From Geoalkalibacter halelectricus (GTDB lineage: Bacteria > Desulfobacterota > Desulfuromonadia > Desulfuromonadales > Geoalkalibacteraceae), in the NCBI RefSeq assembly GCF_025263685.1, contig NZ_CP092109.1, forward strand, positions 2,605,001 to 2,669,000: a DNA stretch of 64,000 nt. Direction: 5' to 3'. Position 1 is the stretch's first letter, and every line of letters starts with the position of its first letter. Shown one piece after another: positions 36,901 to 46,942 of this stretch. The notes beneath the pieces were generated by a model, which was given only the letters and a program-made list of their open reading frames with translations, was not told the origin of the DNA and did not search any database. The translations under genes and the position numbers were made by a program.

Positions 36901-39354
36901 ATGGTTAGCGACGACCAGATTGAAATCATTCAGGAATTCGTTCAGGAAAGCCGCGACATGATCGACCAGCTCGAACCGACCATCATCGAGCTGGGACAGA
37001 GCGTGCACGACGTGCAGTGCTGGGAGACCCTCGGCTGCACGGACACTCAGTGCTCGCGCCACGGCCACCCCAGCGATTTTCCCTGCTGGCTGGAAATGGG
37101 CCACATCGCCGAGGGCAGCGGCCGCTGCATCTACACCGAATCCAAGCAGGACTGCCTCAATTGCCGGGTGTTTCAATCCATCAACGGCGACGGCAAAACC
37201 ATGAACGCCATCTTCCGCCTGTTTCACTCCATGAAGGGCAGCGCGGGCTTTCTGGAATTCGACGACATCACGCGTGTGGCTCACACGGCGGAAAACCTGC
37301 TGGATCTAATTCGCAACGGCGGCATCCGCATGCAGCCCGCGCATGTCAACCTGCTGTGCGCCAGCTGCGACTTCGCCAAGGCGGCCCTCGATCAGGTCGA
37401 GGAACACTTCAGCGACCAGGGCATGCGCGAAGCCGCCGAGGACATCAGCGCGCGCCTCGACCAGGCCATCGAAGAGGCCCGCACCCTGGCCCGCGGTCCC
37501 GCCGCGGAGGCGGCAAGTCCCGCGCCCGTCGCCGCCCCACCGGTTGATGCGCCGCCCGAGCAAACACTCGAGATCGACACCGCCGAGGAGCCGGCCTTCG
37601 TGCTGGAAATCTCCGGAGAGATGCTGGAAAAATTCGTACAGGAAGGCGACGAACTGCTGCAAAACGTCGAGCAGGATCTGCTCAAATGGGAAGAGATCAG
37701 GGAGAATCCCACCATCATCGCCAGCCTGTTCCGCAACGTGCACAGCTTTAAGGGCAACTGCGGCTTTTTCGGCGTGGCCGACATGGAGCGACTCTCCCAC
37801 CAGATGGAAACCCTGCTCGACGCGGTCAAGTCGGGCCGGGATTTCGGCCTGCGGCCGGGCGAGGTCATGCTCGGCCTGATCGATGTGCTGCGCGAAGCGC
37901 TGGGCGACCTCGCGCGCGGCGGCAGCGGCCGCATCGCCAACCTCGATGCCTACCTCAGGCAACTGGCCGATATTTTGGCCGAGGAAACGCCCGCCGCGGC
38001 CGTTGAGGAGGTGCCGCAGGCCGTAAACTGCGTCGCACCGATCGCCGAAGCCCCTGAGCCGCCGCAAGCCGCCGCGCCGATCCTGGCGAAGCCGGCACCC
38101 GTGCGCACCGAGGCCAAACCCAAGCCCGTGGAGAACAAGCCCGCTGCCACCGCCAGCCAGGCACCCCTTAAGCGCCAGGACATCCGTGTCGATCTGGAAA
38201 AGCTCGACAACCTCATCAATCTCATCGGCGAAATCGTCATCGCCGAGAACATGCTGGTGCGCAATCCCGACCTCGACGGCCTGGAACTGGAAAACTTTAA
38301 CAAGGCCGGCCAGCACATGAGCAAGCTGGTGCGCGAGCTGCAGGAAACCGCCATGATCATCCGCATGATCCCGGTTTCCGGGCTGTTTCGCCGCATGATC
38401 CGCCTGGTGCACGATATCTCGCTGAAGGCGGGCAAGAAGGTCGACCTGCGGCTTTCCGGCGAAGAGACGGAGATGGATAAGACGGTGATCGAAACCATCA
38501 CCGATCCCCTGGTGCATATCCTGCGCAATTCCTGCGATCACGGCATCGAGCCGCCCGCCGAGCGCTTGAAGGCGGGCAAGCCGGAGAAGGGGGTGGTCAA
38601 GCTCTCGGCCTGCCACGAGGAGGGCGAGGTGTGGATCACCATCGAGGACGACGGCCGCGGCCTTGATCGCGACAAGCTGCTGGCCAAGGCCATCAGCAAG
38701 GGATTGGTGGAGGGCGACGGTTCCGACATGTCGGACAAGGCGGTCTACAACCTGATTTTCGCGCCCGGCTTTTCCACCGCGGAGAAGATCACCGATATCT
38801 CGGGGCGCGGGGTGGGCATGGACGTGGTGCGCCAGAATCTCGACAAGATCAAGGGCCGGGTCGACGTGCACAGCCGCAAGGGCCAGGGCACCCGTATCAC
38901 CCTGCGCATTCCCCTGACCCTGGCGATCATCGACGGCATGCTGGTGCGCGTCGGCCAGACCAAGGCCATCGTGCCGACCCTGGCGATTCGCGAGGCGTTT
39001 CGGCCCCAGGCCGACGCCGTCACCCACACCCCCGACGGCGATCACCTGGTGCGGGTGCGCGAGCGCTTTCTGCCGGTGGTGCGCCTGCATGAAATTCTGC
39101 GCAAGGAGCCCGACTCCCACCAGATCGAGGACGGCATCCTCATCGTGCTGGAAAACCAGGACGCCAGCATCTGTCTGCTGGTCGACGAGATCCTCGGCCA
39201 GCAGCAAACGGTCATCAAGGGGCTCTCCGACTACATCGGCTCGGTGCGCGCCGTCTCTGGCTGCACCATCATGGGCAACGGCGAAGTCTGCCTGATTCTC
39301 GACATCGGCAGCCTCATGGAAATCAGCCAAGGCGAAAGCCTGGGGAGCAACTGA
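36901..39354 (+). CDS. cheA: Chemotaxis histidine kinase CheA with two Hpt domains and a Cys-rich insert
   Basis: CheA autophosphorylates and passes phosphate to CheY and CheB. The 817-aa protein has a first Hpt domain split by an insert: helix 1 (about 5-33), then residues 36-95 with C40-W41, C46, C51, C62-W63, C76, C85 and C88, then the phospho-helix FHSMKGSAGF with H109. A second Hpt domain follows (H281 in VHSFKGNCGF). After a Pro/Ala linker come the dimerisation domain (about 425-485), the HATPase with HILRNSCDHG (539-548), DDGRG (583-587) and GRGVGMD (635-641), and a CheW-like domain (about 672-810). The CW...CW pattern resembles the two-CW cysteine motif seen in some signalling proteins. 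The function of the insert is unknown; metal or redox sensing is a guess. Confidence 0.95.
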   Translation: MVSDDQIEIIQEFVQESRDMIDQLEPTIIELGQSVHDVQCWETLGCTDTQCSRHGHPSDFPCWLEMGHIAEGSGRCIYTESKQDCLNCRVFQSINGDGKTMNAIFRLFHSMKGSAGFLEFDDITRVAHTAENLLDLIRNGGIRMQPAHVNLLCASCDFAKAALDQVEEHFSDQGMREAAEDISARLDQAIEEARTLARGPAAEAASPAPVAAPPVDAPPEQTLEIDTAEEPAFVLEISGEMLEKFVQEGDELLQNVEQDLLKWEEIRENPTIIASLFRNVHSFKGNCGFFGVADMERLSHQMETLLDAVKSGRDFGLRPGEVMLGLIDVLREALGDLARGGSGRIANLDAYLRQLADILAEETPAAAVEEVPQAVNCVAPIAEAPEPPQAAAPILAKPAPVRTEAKPKPVENKPAATASQAPLKRQDIRVDLEKLDNLINLIGEIVIAENMLVRNPDLDGLELENFNKAGQHMSKLVRELQETAMIIRMIPVSGLFRRMIRLVHDISLKAGKKVDLRLSGEETEMDKTVIETITDPLVHILRNSCDHGIEPPAERLKAGKPEKGVVKLSACHEEGEVWITIEDDGRGLDRDKLLAKAISKGLVEGDGSDMSDKAVYNLIFAPGFSTAEKITDISGRGVGMDVVRQNLDKIKGRVDVHSRKGQGTRITLRIPLTLAIIDGMLVRVGQTKAIVPTLAIREAFRPQADAVTHTPDGDHLVRVRERFLPVVRLHEILRKEPDSHQIEDGILIVLENQDASICLLVDEILGQQQTVIKGLSDYIGSVRAVSGCTIMGNGEVCLILDIGSLMEISQGESLGSN

Positions 39355-39361
39355 CCCCGCT

Positions 39362-40243
39362 ATGTTCGAGCAACGCCTGGAATCAGCATCCGCCCTCGAG
39401 GCAGCCGGCGGCGGACTCATGTCCATCAGCGACGAGGAGTTCGAGCTGCTGCGGCGCCTGATCAAGAGCCGCTTCGGCATCAACCTCACCGACCAGAAAA
39501 AATCCCTGGTGGTGGGCCGGTTGCAGAAGCTGCTGCGCAGCACCGGATTTGCGTCCTTCCACGCCTATTACGAACATCTGGTCAACGACAAGAACGAGGG
39601 CGCGCTCTCGGAACTGATCAACCGCATCTCCACCAACCACACCTATTTCAACCGGGAGAAGGCGCATTTCGACTATTTTCAGCAGACCGCCCTGCCCGCC
39701 GTGGTCGAAAGGCTCAGGCAAGAGGGCAGCCGCGATCTGCGCATCTGGTGCGCCGGGTGCTCCTCGGGCGAGGAAGCCTATACCCTGCAGATGCTCATGC
39801 TCGAGTATTTCGGCGGCGATTACGGCCGCTGGGACGCGGGCATCCTCGCCACCGATATTTCCGAACGGGTGCTCTCCATCGCCCAGGCCGGAATTTATCC
39901 CCAGGAGCGGGTCATGCAGTTGCCCGAAGGGCTGCAACGCAAGTATTTCCGCCGCCTGCCCGACGGTAGCAGCCAGGTCGTCGAAAGCGTGCGCAACGAG
40001 GTCACCCTGCGGCGCTTCAACCTGATGAACGAGCGGTTTCCCTTCAAGAAACCTTTTCACATCATTTTTTGCCGCAATGTCATGATTTACTTCGACCAGC
40101 CGACGCGTGAAACCCTGGTCGGAAAATTCCATCAATTAACGGTGCCCGGCGGTTATCTGTTCATCGGCCACTCGGAAACCCTGGGCCGCAACCATTCCCT
40201 TTATCGCTACGTGATGCCCGCCGTATTCCAGAAGGGAGCCTGA
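39362..40243 (+). CDS. cheR: Chemoreceptor methyltransferase CheR
   Basis: CheR methylates receptor glutamates using S-adenosylmethionine. The 293-aa product has an N-terminal helical domain (ISDEEFELLRRLIKSRFGINLTDQKKSLVVGRL) and the SAM-binding domain with WCAGCSSGEEAYTLQML (129-144), ATDISERVLSIAQAGIY and FHIIFCRNVMIYFD. An internal ATG at 39419 is an alternative start just before the conserved domain. It lies 7 bases after cheA. No receptor gene is in the window. Confidence 0.94.
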   Translation: MFEQRLESASALEAAGGGLMSISDEEFELLRRLIKSRFGINLTDQKKSLVVGRLQKLLRSTGFASFHAYYEHLVNDKNEGALSELINRISTNHTYFNREKAHFDYFQQTALPAVVERLRQEGSRDLRIWCAGCSSGEEAYTLQMLMLEYFGGDYGRWDAGILATDISERVLSIAQAGIYPQERVMQLPEGLQRKYFRRLPDGSSQVVESVRNEVTLRRFNLMNERFPFKKPFHIIFCRNVMIYFDQPTRETLVGKFHQLTVPGGYLFIGHSETLGRNHSLYRYVMPAVFQKGA

Positions 40244-40245
40244 CC

Positions 40246-41319
40246 ATGACGTTGAAAAAAGTCCGGGTACTGGTGGTGGACGATTCGGCGCTGGTGCGCC
40301 AGATCCTCACCCAGGGCCTCGATGCCGACCCCGCCATCGAGGTGGTGGGATCGGCCGCCGATCCCTACCAGGCACGCGACAAAATCGTGCAACTCAATCC
40401 CGACGTGCTGACTCTCGATGTGGAGATGCCGCGCATGGACGGCGTGGAATTCCTGCGCCGCCTCATGCCCCAGCATCCCCTACCGGTGGTCATGGTCAGC
40501 TCGCTGACGCAAAAGGGCAAACAGATCACCATCGACGCCCTGGAGGCCGGGGCGGTGGATTTCGTCGCCAAACCGACCAGCGATGTCGCCCGCGGCCTGC
40601 AGGCGATGATGCTCGAATTGCGCGTCAAGGTGAAGATCGCCTCCACGGCCAATGTCTCGCACTGGAAAAGCCGGCGCGACAGCGTCACCGCACCGCCGCC
40701 GCGCCCGCCCCTGACGGCTCCGGCGGCCCTGGCCGAATCCACCGACAAGGTCATCGCCATCGGCGCCTCCACCGGCGGCACCGAGGCGATCAAGAAGGTC
40801 ATCACCCGCTTTCCCGCCACCGGCCCCGGGGTGGTCATCGTGCAGCACATGCCGGCGGGCTTCACCAAGATGTTCGCCGAGCGCCTCAACCAGCTCTGCC
40901 CCATGGAGGTCAAGGAAGCCGCCAGCGGCGACCGCGTCATGCCCGGCCGCATCCTGGTGGCGCCCGGCGAAAAACAGATGCGCGTAATCCGCTCGGGGGG
41001 CTTCTACCAGGTGAGCTGCGAGCCGGGAGAAAAGGTCAGCGGCCACTGCCCCTCCGTCGACGTGCTCATGCATTCGGTGGCCAAGCATGTGGGCGCCAAC
41101 GCGGTGGGCGCCATGCTCACGGGCATGGGCGCCGACGGTGCCGACGGCATGGCGGCCATGCGTCAGGCCGGCGCGCGCTGCATCGCCCAGGATGAGGCGA
41201 GCTGCGTGGTGTTCGGCATGCCCAAGGTGGCCTATGAGCGCGGCGGCGCCGAAAAGCTGGTCTCCATCGACGATATCGCGCCGACGCTGCTGCGCCTGCT
41301 CAGTGAGAAACGCGCATGA
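40246..41319 (+). CDS. cheB: Chemoreceptor glutamate methylesterase CheB
   Basis: CheB removes methyl groups from receptors when phosphorylated by CheA. The 357-aa product has a receiver domain (D12, D13, D58, K109 in FVAKPTSD) and a methylesterase domain with the catalytic triad S175 (GASTGGTEA), H201 (VQHMPAGFT) and D297 (LTGMGADGADGM). The ATG follows GAAGGGAGCCTGACC, two bases past the cheR stop. All catalytic residues are present. Confidence 0.96.
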   Translation: MTLKKVRVLVVDDSALVRQILTQGLDADPAIEVVGSAADPYQARDKIVQLNPDVLTLDVEMPRMDGVEFLRRLMPQHPLPVVMVSSLTQKGKQITIDALEAGAVDFVAKPTSDVARGLQAMMLELRVKVKIASTANVSHWKSRRDSVTAPPPRPPLTAPAALAESTDKVIAIGASTGGTEAIKKVITRFPATGPGVVIVQHMPAGFTKMFAERLNQLCPMEVKEAASGDRVMPGRILVAPGEKQMRVIRSGGFYQVSCEPGEKVSGHCPSVDVLMHSVAKHVGANAVGAMLTGMGADGADGMAAMRQAGARCIAQDEASCVVFGMPKVAYERGGAEKLVSIDDIAPTLLRLLSEKRA

Positions 41320-41804
41320 GTAACATGATTCTGGGCATCGGCGATCTGGGCGCCAGCAAGAATCCCGAGGACACGGTCAAGACCTTCGCCCTGGGCTCTT
41401 GCGTCGCGGTGATCATGCTCGACCCCAAGACCCGTACCGTGGGCATGGTGCACTGCGCCCTGCCCGAGGCGCGCATCAATCCGGCCAAGGCGCAGGAGCG
41501 CCCGGGCTACTTTGCCGACTCCGGCATTCCCGCCCTGCTCAAGGAAATGGCGCGCCACGGCTGCGACCCCACGGGACGCGGTTTTATCGTCAAGCTCGCC
41601 GGGGGCGCCAAGGTCATGGACCCCAACGACACCTTCAACATCGGCAAGCGCAACCTGCTGGCCGCCAAAAAAATCCTCTGGGCACAGGGATTAGGGGCGG
41701 TGGCCGAAGACGTCGGCGGAAATTTCAGCCGCACGGTGACCATCACCGTGCGCACCGGCGAGGTGATGCTCTCCTCCCCGGGCCGCCCCAACTGGAAACT
41801 CTAA
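41316..41804 (+). CDS. cheD: Chemoreceptor glutamine deamidase CheD
   Basis: CheD deamidates receptor glutamines and in some species binds a CheC phosphatase. The 162-aa product keeps the catalytic C29 in LGSCVAVIM and H46 in GMVHCALP, and the GGNFSRTVTITVRTGEV C-terminus. Its ATG overlaps the cheB stop (ATGA). Since CheC/CheX-type proteins follow in the same cluster, a CheD-phosphatase interaction is plausible. Confidence 0.94.
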   Translation: MSNMILGIGDLGASKNPEDTVKTFALGSCVAVIMLDPKTRTVGMVHCALPEARINPAKAQERPGYFADSGIPALLKEMARHGCDPTGRGFIVKLAGGAKVMDPNDTFNIGKRNLLAAKKILWAQGLGAVAEDVGGNFSRTVTITVRTGEVMLSSPGRPNWKL

Positions 41805-41813
41805 GAGGACGCC

Positions 41814-42695
41814 ATGGCAACCAGGGTCGACCGTCAAGCTATTCTCGAGACCATCCAAAAGGCGCCCATGCTCTCGCCCAGCGCCTCGCGCCTGTTGCAG
41901 ATCACCGCCGCGCGCGACCATGAAATGGCCGAAGTGATCGCCGTGGTGCGCACCGACGCGCACCTGACCGCACGGGTCTTGAAAACCGTCAACTCCGCCG
42001 CCTTCGGGCTGCTCTACGAGATCACCTCCATCGATCGCGCGGTGAACTATCTGGGCGAGCGCATGGTGGTGGGCATCGCCATCGGCGACTGCGCCGCGCA
42101 GCTGTTCCAGAAACCCCTGGACGGCTACGAAAGCGAAAAGGGCAGCCTGTGGCGTCATGATCTGCTCACCGCCATCGCCGCGCGCGAGGTGGCGGGCAAA
42201 TGCAAAACGCCCCTCAACCCCGACCTGGCCTTTACCGCCGGCCTGCTGCACGACATCGGCAAGGCCCTGATCTCGGATTTTCTCAAGGGCACCGCCCCGG
42301 ATCTGCTGCGCGAACTCGAGGAACAACTTCTCAATGACTACCTTGAGGGCGAGCGCGCCGCCCTGGGCATCGATCACCCCGAGGCGGGCGCGGAGCTGGC
42401 GGCGGCCTGGCGACTGCCGCACTCCCTGCAGGCCGCGATTCTCCACCACCATGCGCCTCAGCAGGCACCGGCCGAGCAGCGCGCGCTGGTCTACGCCGTG
42501 CATCTCGGCGACATCATCGCCATGATGGCCGGCTGCGGCACCGGCACCGACAGTCTGCGCTACCGCCTTGACCCAAAATATTCCGATTATTTCGCCCTCA
42601 GCCAGGATGAGCTGTTCGGGATCATTCTCGAAGCGGATGCGGAATTTCAGAAAATCACCCATTCAATGGCCGAAGCCAAGGAGAAACCGGTGTGA
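41814..42695 (+). CDS. HDOD domain protein
   Basis: A 293-aa signalling protein made of one HDOD domain (about 15-210: QKAPMLSPSASRLLQITAARDHEMAEVIAVVRTDAHLTARVLKTVNSAAFG) with an intact HD pair (LWRHD at 112-116 and GLLHDIGK at 143-150), followed by a helical tail. HDOD proteins are common in deltaproteobacterial chemotaxis and gliding clusters, but no enzyme activity is established for most. It starts 9 bases after cheD and overlaps the next receiver gene. Confidence 0.85.
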   Translation: MATRVDRQAILETIQKAPMLSPSASRLLQITAARDHEMAEVIAVVRTDAHLTARVLKTVNSAAFGLLYEITSIDRAVNYLGERMVVGIAIGDCAAQLFQKPLDGYESEKGSLWRHDLLTAIAAREVAGKCKTPLNPDLAFTAGLLHDIGKALISDFLKGTAPDLLRELEEQLLNDYLEGERAALGIDHPEAGAELAAAWRLPHSLQAAILHHHAPQQAPAEQRALVYAVHLGDIIAMMAGCGTGTDSLRYRLDPKYSDYFALSQDELFGIILEADAEFQKITHSMAEAKEKPV

Positions 42696-43084
42696 AACGC
42701 ATTGTCATCGCCGACGATTCGGAAACCGCGCGCATGTTCATCCGTCGCTGCCTGGAGATCATCGGTTTGCGCGATGCCCAGTTCATCGAGGCGGAAAACG
42801 GTCGCGAGGCCCTGCAGCGGGCCAAGGAAGCGCCCACCGACCTGCTGGTTTCCGATTTGAACATGCCGGTCATGGACGGTGCCACCTTGCTTAAATGGGT
42901 CAAGACCAGCCCCAAACTGACCGCACTGCCGGTGCTGATCATCACCAGCGCCGGCAACCCCGCCAAGGAAAAGGAATTGCTGGAGCTCGGCGCCTTTGCG
43001 GTGCTCAACAAACCCGTGGCGCCGGCTCCGCTGCTCAAGGTCCTGGCTCCCTTGCTGCCCGAGGAGAACGAGAATGCCCCCTGA
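42692..43084 (+). CDS. Single-domain response regulator (CheY-like)
   Basis: A 130-aa receiver with acidic pair D8/D9, phospho-acceptor D55 in VSDLNMPVMDG, T85 and K107, so it should be phosphorylatable. It starts with GTG overlapping the HDOD stop codon, indicating coupled translation. It has no output domain. It is a second CheY-type receiver in the cluster; the one at 43598 is closer to classical CheY, so this one may be a phosphate sink or act on the CheX partner encoded next. Confidence 0.88.
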   Translation: MKRIVIADDSETARMFIRRCLEIIGLRDAQFIEAENGREALQRAKEAPTDLLVSDLNMPVMDGATLLKWVKTSPKLTALPVLIITSAGNPAKEKELLELGAFAVLNKPVAPAPLLKVLAPLLPEENENAP

Positions 43085-43556
43085 GATGCCCCCGCATATC
43101 GAACAGGCCATGTTTGAAGCGGTCAGCACCACGCTGGAAAACATGGCATTCATGGATATTCAGCCTCTGCGCGTCCCCCATGACTGCGACGGTCACGCAC
43201 GCGTCTTTCGCGCTTCACTGCTGGTCAAGGATCCCCTGCAGGGCGAACTCTGCCTGATCATGCCCGAGGAGCTGCTGCGCGAAATCGCCTCGGGCATCTA
43301 CGCCGCGCCGCCCGAGGAACTGCCGCGCCGCAAACTCAGCGACATTCTCACCGAGTTGCTCAACACCATCGCCGGGTTGTTTCTCAGCCGCGCGCTGCCG
43401 GCCAACCAGACCTTTGAATTGGGCCTGCCGGAAATCACCGAAGTCAACTGCCGGGAAATCGAACCGACCCTGCTGCAATGGCATTTCCAAGCCGACGCTG
43501 GACACTTCTGCCTGAGCGCGGGAGGCGATTCCTGGAATCAACTATTAGTCCCCTAA
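43074..43556 (+). CDS. CheX/CheC-type phosphatase domain protein
   Basis: A 160-aa protein with the D-X3-E-X2-N phosphatase signature at D90, E94, N97 (LSDILTELLNTIAG), characteristic of the CheC/CheX/FliY family that dephosphorylates CheY-P. The start ATG at 43074 overlaps the preceding receiver by 11 bases and follows GAGGAGAACGAGA; a second ATG at 43086 is possible. It is the most divergent of the phosphatase set here. Target assignment is inferred only from its coupling to the receiver gene. Confidence 0.75.
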   Translation: MPPEMPPHIEQAMFEAVSTTLENMAFMDIQPLRVPHDCDGHARVFRASLLVKDPLQGELCLIMPEELLREIASGIYAAPPEELPRRKLSDILTELLNTIAGLFLSRALPANQTFELGLPEITEVNCREIEPTLLQWHFQADAGHFCLSAGGDSWNQLLVP

Positions 43557-43597
43557 ATAAACGACACTCACCGACAACCGCAAAACAGGAGGCAACC

Positions 43598-43969
43598 ATG
43601 GCCACATCCGTACTGATCATCGACGACTCCAACACCATGCGCAAAATCGTGCAGCGCTCCCTGCGCCAGGCCGGTTTTGAATTCAGCAAAATCCTCGAGG
43701 CCGGCGACGGCCAGGAAGCCCTGTCCGTTCTGGCGTCCGAACAGGTCGACCTGATCCTCTCCGACATCAACATGCCCAACATGGACGGCATCGAATTTTT
43801 GCGCCAGAAAGCGGCCAATGCCGACATCAAGGACATTCCCGTGGTCATGATCACCACCGAGGCCGGCAACGACATTCTCGGCGAAGCCAAGTCCCTGGGC
43901 GCCAAAGGCAGCATCAAGAAACCCTTTACCGCCGACCAGGTCCAGGACGTTCTCGGGGGTCTCATTTAA
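43598..43969 (+). CDS. cheY: Chemotaxis response regulator CheY
   Basis: A 123-aa receiver with D9/D10, phospho-acceptor D56 in LSDINMPNMDG, T86 in MITTEAG and K108 in IKKPFTADQ, all canonical. It would carry the signal from CheA to FliM. The ATG at 43598 follows ACAGGAGGCAACC, so it has its own strong ribosome site; the 40 codons upstream in frame are inside the preceding gene. Confidence 0.92.
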   Translation: MATSVLIIDDSNTMRKIVQRSLRQAGFEFSKILEAGDGQEALSVLASEQVDLILSDINMPNMDGIEFLRQKAANADIKDIPVVMITTEAGNDILGEAKSLGAKGSIKKPFTADQVQDVLGGLI

Positions 43970-43992
43970 CCTGTCGAAATAAGGAGTCGCCC

Positions 43993-44454
43993 GTGGATCT
44001 GGCAAAAACCATCAGTGAAGCGACCCGGGAAATCTTCGAAACCATGATCATGGCCGAAGTCATCCCCGGAGAGCCCCGCAATGAAGGGGCGCAAAAATAT
44101 TCCTGCACGGTATCGGGAATGGTCGGCCTGGCCGGGCTGTTCAAGGGCATGATCGCCATCCACACCCCGGATGCCGTGGCCATGTCCATCACCAGCAGCT
44201 TTCTCGGCATGGACGTGGAGGAAGTCAACGACGATGTCACCGATGCCATCGGCGAGTTGGCCAACATGCTCGCCGGGTCGGTAAAAATGGCCTTGTCGCA
44301 AAACGGCAAGGACATTACCCTGTCGATTCCCTCAACCATCACCGGCGAGGAATATTCCATCAACTGCATTCTCGACACCGACCGGGTAATCATGCCCTTC
44401 ACCCTCGGCGAGGGGCAGTTTCTGGTGGAATTGCAAGTGGAAAAACAAGCCTGA
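43993..44454 (+). CDS. cheX: CheX-like phosphatase, copy A
   Basis: A 153-aa protein with the CheX fold pattern: an N-terminal helix (ISEATREIFETMIMAEV), a central GLFKGMIAIHTPDAVAMSITSSFLGM, and D84-AIG-E88-LA-N91 as the catalytic signature. It starts with GTG after AAGGAGTCGCCC, 23 bases past cheY. It is clearly paralogous to the next gene: same length and signature residues at identical positions. Expected activity is CheY-P dephosphorylation. Confidence 0.85.
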   Translation: MDLAKTISEATREIFETMIMAEVIPGEPRNEGAQKYSCTVSGMVGLAGLFKGMIAIHTPDAVAMSITSSFLGMDVEEVNDDVTDAIGELANMLAGSVKMALSQNGKDITLSIPSTITGEEYSINCILDTDRVIMPFTLGEGQFLVELQVEKQA

Positions 44455-44521: not shown

Positions 44522-44983
44522 GTGGATCTCGAGCCTTTGATCGTCACCGCGACCCAGTGCGTCTTTTCCACCATGCTCATGCTCGATCTCGAGCCCGAAC
44601 CGGTCGAGAATGCGGGCGAGGTGGCCCTTGCCGGGGGCATCACCGGCATGCTGGGCTTTTCCGGGGATCTCAGCGGCATGCTCAGCCTGCACTGTCCGGC
44701 GCAAGTCGCAACCGGTATCACCGGCGGTTTTCTCGGCATGGAGGTGGAAGAAATCAATGCCGACGTCAAGGACGCCATCGGCGAGATGGTCAACATGCTC
44801 ACCGGTAGCCTGAAAGAAGGCCTGGCCCATGTCGGGCACGACATCCGCCTGGCGATTCCCACCACCATCGTCGGACGCTCCTTTCGCATCTCCAGCCAGA
44901 GCGCGGAGAACCGGATCTGCATCCCCTTCTCCCTGCCCGAGGGGCGCTTTTTCGTCGAAGTGAAATACAAGCGGACAACTTAG
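44522..44983 (+). CDS. cheX: CheX-like phosphatase, copy B
   Basis: A 153-aa protein with D84-AIG-E88-MV-N91 and the same layout as copy A (GDLSGMLSLHCPAQVATGITGGFLGMEVEEIN). The start is GTG after AGGGAGAAGAAT. The two copies are moderately diverged, so the duplication is old and they may serve different receivers. Confidence 0.85.
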   Translation: MDLEPLIVTATQCVFSTMLMLDLEPEPVENAGEVALAGGITGMLGFSGDLSGMLSLHCPAQVATGITGGFLGMEVEEINADVKDAIGEMVNMLTGSLKEGLAHVGHDIRLAIPTTIVGRSFRISSQSAENRICIPFSLPEGRFFVEVKYKRTT

Positions 44984-45001: not shown

Positions 45002-46942
45002 GTGCAAAGGGCGGTAGTCGACAGCGTTCTCAAATCGGCGATGACCAAGGTCGCCGAGGAGGTCGCCAGCCTGCTGGGCGAGGAGTTCAAGCTTGCCGAA
45101 CCTCGCTTCGCGGCGCTGAGCAAACAGGAGTATTTCGCCACTCCGCGGGACAAGTGCGCCTACACCCGGGTCGCCGGCAACGGTGACTTCAGCGGCGAGG
45201 CCGCCATCATCCTGCCCCTCAAGGACGCGGTCCAGCTCGGCGGCACCCTGATCATGCTGCCCGACGAGGAACTGGCACAGAAAGTCAAAAACCCCGTCCT
45301 CGATGGGGAGGAAGGCGATGCTTTCGGCGAGGTGGCCAACATCATCGTCGGAGCGGTCACGGCGGTCTTCGAGGATCTCTACCCGAAAAAGCTGCATTTT
45401 AAAAAAACCACCAGCGAAACCCTCATCCCCACCAAGGTCGACCTCGAGGCGCCGGAGCCGTTCGCGCCCGGTCATTATCATCTCAGCGCGGCCGCCATGA
45501 GCCTCGCCGGCAAGCCCCTGGGCGACCTGGAGTTACTCTTTCCCCTGGCCCTGCTCGGCTTGCCCCTGCCCGAACAAGCACCGCAGGCCGCCGCGACGAC
45601 CGAAAAACCCCAGCAGTCATCGGTCAAACGCGACGCCGTGGCGACGCCGACCGAGGACCAGACGGCCGCGCGCTCCGCGTCCACCGCCTCCAACGAGGAG
45701 CGCCAGGCCGCGGCACGCGTTGCCCAAGCCGACGCCGAAGCCCCGGCCGCGCCCGCAGCCGCGCAAGAATCGCCGGATGCGCAAGCCGAGCAGCCGACCG
45801 AGGTCCAATCCGCCGGGGTGGCGCGCGGCGTCGTCGACAACATTCTCGGCAACGCTTTCAAGGAAATCGCCAAGGATCTCTCCGACCTGGTCGGCCAGCC
45901 GGTCAAATGCGCCGGCCCCGCCTTTCAGCCCCTGACCAAGGCCGATTACCTCGCCCTGCCCCGCGACAAGGGTGCGCTGGCGCGCCTGGAAATCAACGGC
46001 GACTACCAGGGCGAAGCGTTTCTCATCGTGCGCCAGCGCGATGCGGTGCTGTTCGGCGGCACCCTCATCATGCTGCCGGACGAGGAGCTGGCGGCCAAGG
46101 TCAAAGCAGCGAAATTCGAGGGCGAGGAGGCCGACGCCTACGGCGAGGTGGCCAATATCGTCACCGGCTCGCTGACCAAGGTGCTTGAAGAGCAATATCC
46201 GCGCAAACTGCATCTCAAGCGCACCCTGGTGGAGCCGTTGATCCCGACCAAGGTCGATCTTCAGGGGGCGCAGCCCTTTGCTCCCGGCGAGTACTATCTG
46301 GCCACCTGCCAACTGGCCCTGGAAAAAAAACCCCTGGGCGAACTCGACCTGCTCTTTCCGGCGGCGGCCCTGGATGTCAAGCTCGACAAGCCCGAGGAAA
46401 AACCAGCGGCCGCAAACGCCGACGCAAGCCGTGGGAATACTTCGCGCCAGGCCGAGTCCGCTGAAAACGACCGCAAAGTCACTCATGCCAACGCCATCAG
46501 CAGCGACGACCTTGCTGCCCTTCAAGCCGAGGCTGCTCGCAGCGACGACGATGAGGCACCCAAGCAGGTCGGTACCATTCTGATCGTGGCGGAAACCGGG
46601 GATGTCGGGGAGCCTTTCGGCGCGTTGCTGAATCAGCGTGGGCAGGATCACCGGATCATGCATTTTCAGGACAACGTCAAAAAAGCCGTTAACGGCCACC
46701 AGGTCCATGGCGTCTTTCTGGTCATGAACGAGGTTTCGGAACAGGGCTTTGCCGCCGCCATCAAAATCAAGTCGGCCCTGCCGAAAAAGGTGCCGTTGGT
46801 GATGGCCGCCCCCCAGTGGACCCGCACCACCGTGCTCAAGGCGGTACGCTACGGGGTGCGCGACATTCTGGTCACGCCCGCCGCGCCCGAGGAAATCGCC
46901 GAGAAGCTCTCCCGCCACATGGGCACCGCTTCCAGCCCTTGA
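45002..46942 (+). CDS. Tandem CheX/CheC-like domains fused to a degenerate receiver
   Basis: The 646-aa protein has two copies of a domain of about 185 residues (1-190 and 274-460). Both share Y-x-A-x-PRDK, FGGTLIMLPDEELA-type and LIPTKVDL blocks. Each carries the phosphatase signature, D106-AFG-E110-VA-N113 and D378-AYG-E382-VA-N385. An Ala/Glu-rich linker joins them, and another (about 462-520) leads to a receiver-like domain (523-640) that lacks the acidic pair, has N576 where the phospho-acceptor would sit, and lacks the lysine. It starts with GTG after AGAAGGGATAGAATCCGAAC. Function is unknown; a double phosphatase regulated by a pseudo-receiver is inference. Confidence 0.7.
   Translation: MQRAVVDSVLKSAMTKVAEEVASLLGEEFKLAEPRFAALSKQEYFATPRDKCAYTRVAGNGDFSGEAAIILPLKDAVQLGGTLIMLPDEELAQKVKNPVLDGEEGDAFGEVANIIVGAVTAVFEDLYPKKLHFKKTTSETLIPTKVDLEAPEPFAPGHYHLSAAAMSLAGKPLGDLELLFPLALLGLPLPEQAPQAAATTEKPQQSSVKRDAVATPTEDQTAARSASTASNEERQAAARVAQADAEAPAAPAAAQESPDAQAEQPTEVQSAGVARGVVDNILGNAFKEIAKDLSDLVGQPVKCAGPAFQPLTKADYLALPRDKGALARLEINGDYQGEAFLIVRQRDAVLFGGTLIMLPDEELAAKVKAAKFEGEEADAYGEVANIVTGSLTKVLEEQYPRKLHLKRTLVEPLIPTKVDLQGAQPFAPGEYYLATCQLALEKKPLGELDLLFPAAALDVKLDKPEEKPAAANADASRGNTSRQAESAENDRKVTHANAISSDDLAALQAEAARSDDDEAPKQVGTILIVAETGDVGEPFGALLNQRGQDHRIMHFQDNVKKAVNGHQVHGVFLVMNEVSEQGFAAAIKIKSALPKKVPLVMAAPQWTRTTVLKAVRYGVRDILVTPAAPEEIAEKLSRHMGTASSP

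Follow-up and report, generated by a model that had tools for sequence, protein, structure and literature searches.

A conserved two-CW-like cysteine module within the first phosphotransfer domain of a Geoalkalibacter CheA

Introduction

Can a chemotaxis kinase carry, inside its own phosphotransfer domain, a module of the kind expected of a sensor? One CheA survey (PMC10782961) presents CheA as a histidine kinase without a sensor or input domain that depends on receptors. An insert of the type reported here goes unmentioned in the survey's Hpt section, the words 'cysteine' and 'zinc' are absent from its main text, and the sole insertion found in the available text lies in a CheW domain. A two-CW domain or cysteine insert in CheA was likewise not found in the literature as represented by titles and the opening parts of abstracts, a body of text that leaves most subscription papers outside. 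NCBIfam already knows the module kind; what seems new is that it lies within an Hpt domain and has been gained and lost there. A conserved sensor-like module within the phosphotransfer domain of CheA would break the rule that this kinase is sensor-less, and would do so in organisms that depend on metals and redox state for their energy metabolism.

The CheA in question is encoded in a 64,000-nucleotide stretch of the Geoalkalibacter halelectricus genome (contig NZ_CP092109.1, positions 2,605,001 to 2,669,000), referred to as the window. An earlier note, made from the sequence alone, had described about 60 extra cysteine-rich residues interrupting the first Hpt domain of this kinase, likened them to a two-CW motif and proposed a response to metal, haem or redox state.

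A cysteine-rich insert in the first Hpt domain

The cheA gene (36901-39354, plus strand) encodes 817 amino acids in which Pfam recognises a first Hpt domain (P1) holding the insert, a second Hpt domain, and H-kinase_dim, HATPase_c and CheW domains. The first domain scores as an Hpt over the Pfam cut-off and has an HxxKG phospho-acceptor (HSMKG), the histidine of which, H109 (37225-37227), is borne by helix B (residues 98-117, 37192-37251) of the AlphaFold2 model; helix A covers residues 4-34 (36910-37002). The second Hpt domain (residues 240-313, 37618-37839, with H281) is without an insert, and the kinase core of H-kinase_dim, HATPase_c and CheW spans 38176-39321. Pfam found neither a P2 (CheY-binding) domain nor a CZB match in the window CheA.

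Helix A and the phospho-histidine helix are separated by a two-CW-like cysteine module of 61 residues in the P1 A-B loop, S34 to I94 (37000-37182), with bounds judged against insert-less orthologues reading ...IIELGQ-NSDPETMNAIFRLFHSMKG. The earlier note had placed its insert at 37008-37190, close to these bounds, and had the cysteines and tryptophans exactly right: C40-W41, the first CW (37018-37023), C46 (37036-37038), C51 (37051-37053), C62-W63, the second CW (37084-37089), C76, 14 residues past C62 (37126-37128), and the C85-x2-C88 pair (37153-37164), together with H109.

The alignment of homologues called for by that note was run by searching 136 genomes from the order for the window P1 (E 1e-12). 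Matches occurred in 79 genomes: 33 extended over nearly the whole of P1 with the insert, 45 began only at residue 92-97, and the last (G065) was a weak P1 match to a different CheA. DNA was read for all 33 insert-bearing orthologues and for 44 of the 45 insert-less orthologues, the one left out (G059) lying at a contig edge. All 44 join cleanly at one and the same position, IIELGQ being followed directly by NSDPETMNAIFRLFHSMKG or by a short-looped variant of it. The other Hpt/CheA-like matches of the G. halelectricus genome (four loci) lack the insert. A second copy of the module was detected in this genome neither with NF045718 at E 0.1, a search that misses the CheA insert too, nor in two profile searches at E 0.001, one of which scored 15 of 41 candidates, and each of the genome's 12 matches to one module-bearing chemoreceptor falls before or after the module of that receptor.

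Conservation and predicted structure of the insert

The seven cysteines and two tryptophans of the insert are unchanged in all 33 orthologues that possess it. All nine Cys/Trp columns of the module are thus invariant, compared with four of the 46 others (R53, L64, G67 and G72; Fisher p about 1e-7), and most remaining positions vary. The pattern by which the 33 were sorted fixes C40, C46, C51 and C62-W63, plus W or F at position 41, and is not circular in practice, since no orthologue read with an insert-length loop fails it and C76, C85 and C88 lie outside it. An eighth cysteine occurs at position 35 in 28 of the 33 inserts, with valine instead in the window's genus (four genomes) and in one further genome (G045); H54 is likewise present in 28, and no histidine is invariant among the 33. 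Amongst seven close relatives, dN of the insert was below dS in every one of 21 pairs (ratio 0.10-0.54) and was higher in the insert than in the rest of P1 in 18 of them.

The Hpt fold was modelled with the insert in place, as the earlier note had proposed, and the bundle stayed intact. AlphaFold2, run on P1 plus insert with an alignment of 43 sequences, returned a mean pLDDT of 94.0 and a pTM of 0.89, with about 93 for the insert in its P1 context (89-96 over ten-residue blocks). The insert model has short helices at residues 40-44, 82-86 and 89-95, the rest being coil, and thus little regular secondary structure. Around it, the model superimposes on the CheA P1 domain of Salmonella (1i5n) with a Z of 20.0 and an rmsd of 1.6 Å over 129 residues (Foldseek E 3.1e-4); the match spans all 129 residues of the same helical bundle with its phospho-histidine on helix B, the difference being that the A-B loop of 1i5n is short and that of the window CheA holds the 61-residue module. 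The insert therefore interrupts the kinase's own phosphotransfer domain, in agreement with the earlier note. H109 is the 12th residue of helix B, about 16 Å along the helix from its module-side start at the 1.5 Å rise per residue of an alpha-helix.

Folded alone, the insert reached a pLDDT of 54.5 (27 sequences), which may mean either that it needs packing against P1 or that the in-context model borrows confidence. Fold searches with the whole of P1 returned a match list filled by the Hpt bundle, a viral fold library gave no match at E 0.001, and sequence searches of the PDB found no convincing relative (best E 0.16 with the CheA profile and none up to E 5 with the profile of the kinase-type module described below). 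A disordered linker with variable cysteines, the case that the earlier note had named as its refutation, is ruled out by the invariant Cys/Trp positions and the high pLDDT.

Relatives in kinases, stand-alone proteins and chemoreceptors

A profile of the insert finds the same cysteine pattern in histidine kinases and a hybrid kinase, and also N-terminally in a PAS protein and C-terminally in an HTH protein. In profile comparison (hhalign) the CheA insert matched this kinase-type module at 98.4% with a score of 70.75 over 61 columns. Column shuffles reached at most 8.8% (n = 30), and shuffles that kept the Cys/Trp columns in place reached at most 80% and a score of 28.7, with a median probability of 6% (n = 30). 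Cysteine spacing can thus produce a high score by itself, but it does not account for the whole of the match. The kinase-type alignment (A4) contained 18 of the 23 hits over 20 bits, leaving out a near copy (L179, of L180), one with a longer spacer (L191) and three with CF for the second CW (L184, L190 and L194). These last three carry a variant of the module in which one cysteine is also shifted, and the C-terminal domain of L184, the member read over its full length, reads to us as a GGDEF domain.

Except for two of the 18 rows (L182 and L189), which lie outside a HAMP region, the kinase-type module mostly looks as though it follows the first HAMP helix, and the GDEI..L..SF..M stretch after it is, in our reading, the second. 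Pfam sees only the first HAMP half, at 20.9 bits in L178 (below the cut-off of 25) and 27.3 bits in L123, and reports no HAMP in L192. Two of the kinases (L178 and L180) have a CxxCH motif (CYKCHG and CFKCHG) ahead of the HAMP-like helix and module; kinases of this sort may hold haem outside the cell and the cysteine module inside.

The likeness to a two-CW motif in the earlier note holds at the level of a two-CW-like module recognised by profile, and fails at the library threshold: against two_CW NF045718 the window P1 scored 16.3 bits (E 0.0092, residues 52-95) with a cut-off of 35 bits, and inserts elsewhere also scored below it (22.4 bits in G041, 14.9 bits in L095). By that cut-off the insert is not an NF045718 member. 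The stand-alone proteins of this family (alignment A5, six of seven loci, L090 being without a pattern match) resemble the CheA insert in their two CW pairs, seven cysteines in order and C-x2-C end (6/6 aligned), and differ in longer spacers and in CGR and NGG signatures of their own. Compared directly by hhalign, insert and stand-alone family matched at only 6.2% (E 0.006), and kinase-type module and stand-alone family at 98.5%, both with six stand-alone rows, so the link from insert to NF045718 runs through the kinase-type modules (98.4%, then 98.5%). Judged by these profile comparisons, the CheA insert is a divergent module of the two-CW kind, with homologues lodged in the HAMP connectors of kinases and chemoreceptors; it probably descends from a two-CW module and would work like one.

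A further set of relatives came from an order-wide profile search for module-bearing proteins, from which 18 ORFs were fetched (L221-L238, alignment A7). All 18 match MCPsignal and 16 match HAMP in Pfam, making them chemoreceptors. The CheA insert matches the chemoreceptor-type module at 97.8% over 55 columns, and the chemoreceptor-type module matches the stand-alone family at 1.9%. In all 18, by our reading, the module is preceded by a membrane-like stretch and a HAMP-like helix and followed by an ELGS...GMA-like stretch. The seven cysteines are kept in every one, with CS in place of the first CW (CG in 1/18). In the one member with coordinates, Pfam places HAMP immediately downstream of the module, and this may be a second HAMP. 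The HAMP-borne module has the same cysteine order as the CheA insert, similar spacing and a similar position between two helices of a signalling domain, the host being HAMP in one case and Hpt in the other, so that the CheA insert has no HAMP location. No library name for the HAMP-borne module emerged from the Pfam and NCBIfam scans.

Ten of the 18 module-bearing chemoreceptors also match CZB (PF13682) in Pfam, which would put two putative metal elements in one receptor. CZB, a metal element of chemotaxis receptors and a proposed redox sensor, is a separate helical domain, unlike the CheA insert; its co-occurrence fits a metal or redox theme and proves nothing for CheA.

Six cysteines are common by position to all versions compared, and the seventh is not. 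It lies 14 residues from the cysteine of the second CW in 33/33 CheA inserts, 13 in 18/18 chemoreceptors, and 8 in 6/6 stand-alone proteins and most kinase-type rows. The CheA insert groups with the chemoreceptors by the place of this residue and is nearer to the kinase type by hhalign score, and with the seventh cysteine at differing places a single metal site common to all versions is not certain.

Module-bearing ORFs of at least 550 aa outside CheA occurred in 15 of the 45 insert-less genomes versus 2 of the 33 insert-bearing genomes (Fisher p 0.005); the 18 fetched ORFs were read from 16 of these 17 genomes, the ORF of the other (G077) being seen as L139. Four loci encode a module-bearing receptor a short way downstream of cheA and in the same orientation, three of them insert-less (L123:8926-10971, L139:5176-7269 and L131:8848-10835) and one, from a Desulfobulbaceae MAG, insert-bearing (L095:9636-12188). 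The receptors at these loci have a CS...CW variant of the module in a HAMP-looking region, and that of L131 is split over two frames. A trade-off by which lineages would carry the module either in the kinase or in a receptor is offered as no more than a remark, as shared ancestry explains the distribution equally well and the two to three independent pairs give no significance.

Distribution, gain and loss

A scan of 84,980 species, with one genome per species, was based on two short peptide patterns that distant cases may escape, and identified the insert in at least 26 CheA loci among the best 79 of 84 confirmed loci. The insert-bearing loci listed belong, by title, to Geoalkalibacter, Geothermobacter, Desulfuromonas, Pelobacter, and Desulfuromonadales or Desulfuromonadaceae, with others from MAGs, namely unplaced Deltaproteobacteria, one member of the Desulfobulbaceae and one labelled as Acidobacteriota, which falls inside the insert-bearing clade of the tree. 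In a phylum sample of 395 genomes searched with the insert profile at E 0.001, with the best 15 candidates per genome scored in most, at least 81 genomes matched; in at least seven of these the score is 91 bits or higher and the match is a CheA insert. Next in score among the matches listed, at 44 bits, is one in a histidine kinase, and no CheA was seen among the 23 weaker phylum loci examined.

Presence of the insert requires three changes on a 73-row tree and five on an 83-row tree, with none of 500 shuffles as low. The smaller tree left out L166 and loci whose CheA frame does not exceed 550 aa, and both were built by a 'quick' method that returned long-branch warnings. The count of changes is not fixed, since the starred branches alone force just two and the root is a single outgroup row; one gain followed by about four losses fits, with the losses falling in the Desulfobulbaceae, in families f7 with f16, in family f8 and in G123. 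The last of these sits among insert-bearing relatives (support 81, wider fork 99), and its CheA reads ELGQSCQDASGDPETIN, a short stub with the SCQ start of insert-bearing CheAs. This SCQDAS stub at the start of CheA (L058/L132) is likely the remnant of an in-frame deletion. The insert was probably spliced once into one CheA, in an ancestor of the Desulfuromonadales and some neighbours. The inferred losses show that CheA functions without the insert, making a core role unlikely.

Possible roles of the insert

The position, homology, conservation, predicted fold and loss in several lineages of the insert are established. Its position, fixed cysteines and relatives together suggest a module that holds metal in the cytoplasm and is set in the link from one helix to another, and the reading that we favour, at a probability of roughly 0.5, is that of a folded, probable metal module in the P1 A-B loop, the state of which tunes phosphate flow through H109 besides control by receptors. 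The common design would be a cysteine knot set where one helix of a helical signalling domain connects to the next. In the reducing cytoplasm the cysteines would hold Zn or an Fe-S cluster, which is likely, and a loaded, emptied or oxidised module could move helix B, alter its dynamics or affect how it docks to the kinase core or CheY. Phosphate flow through H109 might then be tuned by the metal or redox state of the cytoplasm, added to receptor control; such control of phosphotransfer by the insert is plausible. P1 domains of related CheAs, some bearing the insert and some lacking it, together with the apparent loss stub, amount to a natural experiment in which an effect on phosphotransfer is directly measurable.

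A bolder version, which we advance tentatively and hold to be less probable, is that this CheA has its own cytoplasmic sensor gating H109 without a receptor, that the same module is a general plug-in of HAMP and Hpt connectors for redox or metal input, and that lineages keep it at either the kinase or the receptor.

The main rival is a constitutive structural or docking role, in which a permanent structural Zn would support a binding surface, with CheY, a phosphatase or the receptor array as the partner, and nothing would be sensed. We rate this as the less probable account, though a serious one. It agrees with the intact P1 fold and with cysteines that stay fixed as many other positions differ between families, and an alternative docking surface could help a CheA in which Pfam found no P2. 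Against it stand the relatives of the module, located in HAMP connectors and at the ends of kinases or regulators, hosts for which we know of no shared docking partner, and the loss of the insert by orthologues in several lineages.

A metal-free thiol-disulfide switch, by which paired cysteines would oxidise on exposure to oxygen and alter P1, is improbable in our estimate. The seven cysteines include one C-x2-C pair, and the named hosts belong to deltaproteobacterial groups with a largely anaerobic physiology; however, with six cysteines shared by position and a further one present in almost every version, the set resembles a metal site more than a switch of two cysteines, and a cytoplasmic protein of an anaerobe is normally reduced.

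Of the three stimuli in the earlier note, haem is the weakest, and binding of haem by the insert is very improbable. Haem chemoreceptors do exist in the same bacterial group (Geobacter GSU0582 and GSU0935; PMC8396549), but these, according to the available text of that source, bind c-type haem in periplasmic domains, and the insert has no CXXCH (C85-L-N-C88-R) and no invariant histidine in its 33 examples. A neutral linker or annotation artefact would account for a dispensable insert, cleanly absent from many orthologues by what are taken as losses, and has a negligible chance of being correct given Cys/Trp positions invariant across deep branches, an open frame, a high-confidence model and homologous modules elsewhere.

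Chemotaxis genes around cheA

Downstream of cheA, on the same strand (39362-44454), lie che genes for CheR, CheB, CheD, an HDOD protein, a receiver, CheX, a second receiver and a second CheX, and the opposite-strand frames upstream of cheA are, as we read them, flagellar genes. Beyond the che genes, the plus strand of the window at 45002-46942 encodes a 646-aa protein of two similar halves that matches CheX at 30.7 bits with no single stretch passing. CheX is also matched at 43056 and at 43993, and a frame at 44522 looks similar; with this protein they form a row of CheX-like proteins in the che cluster.
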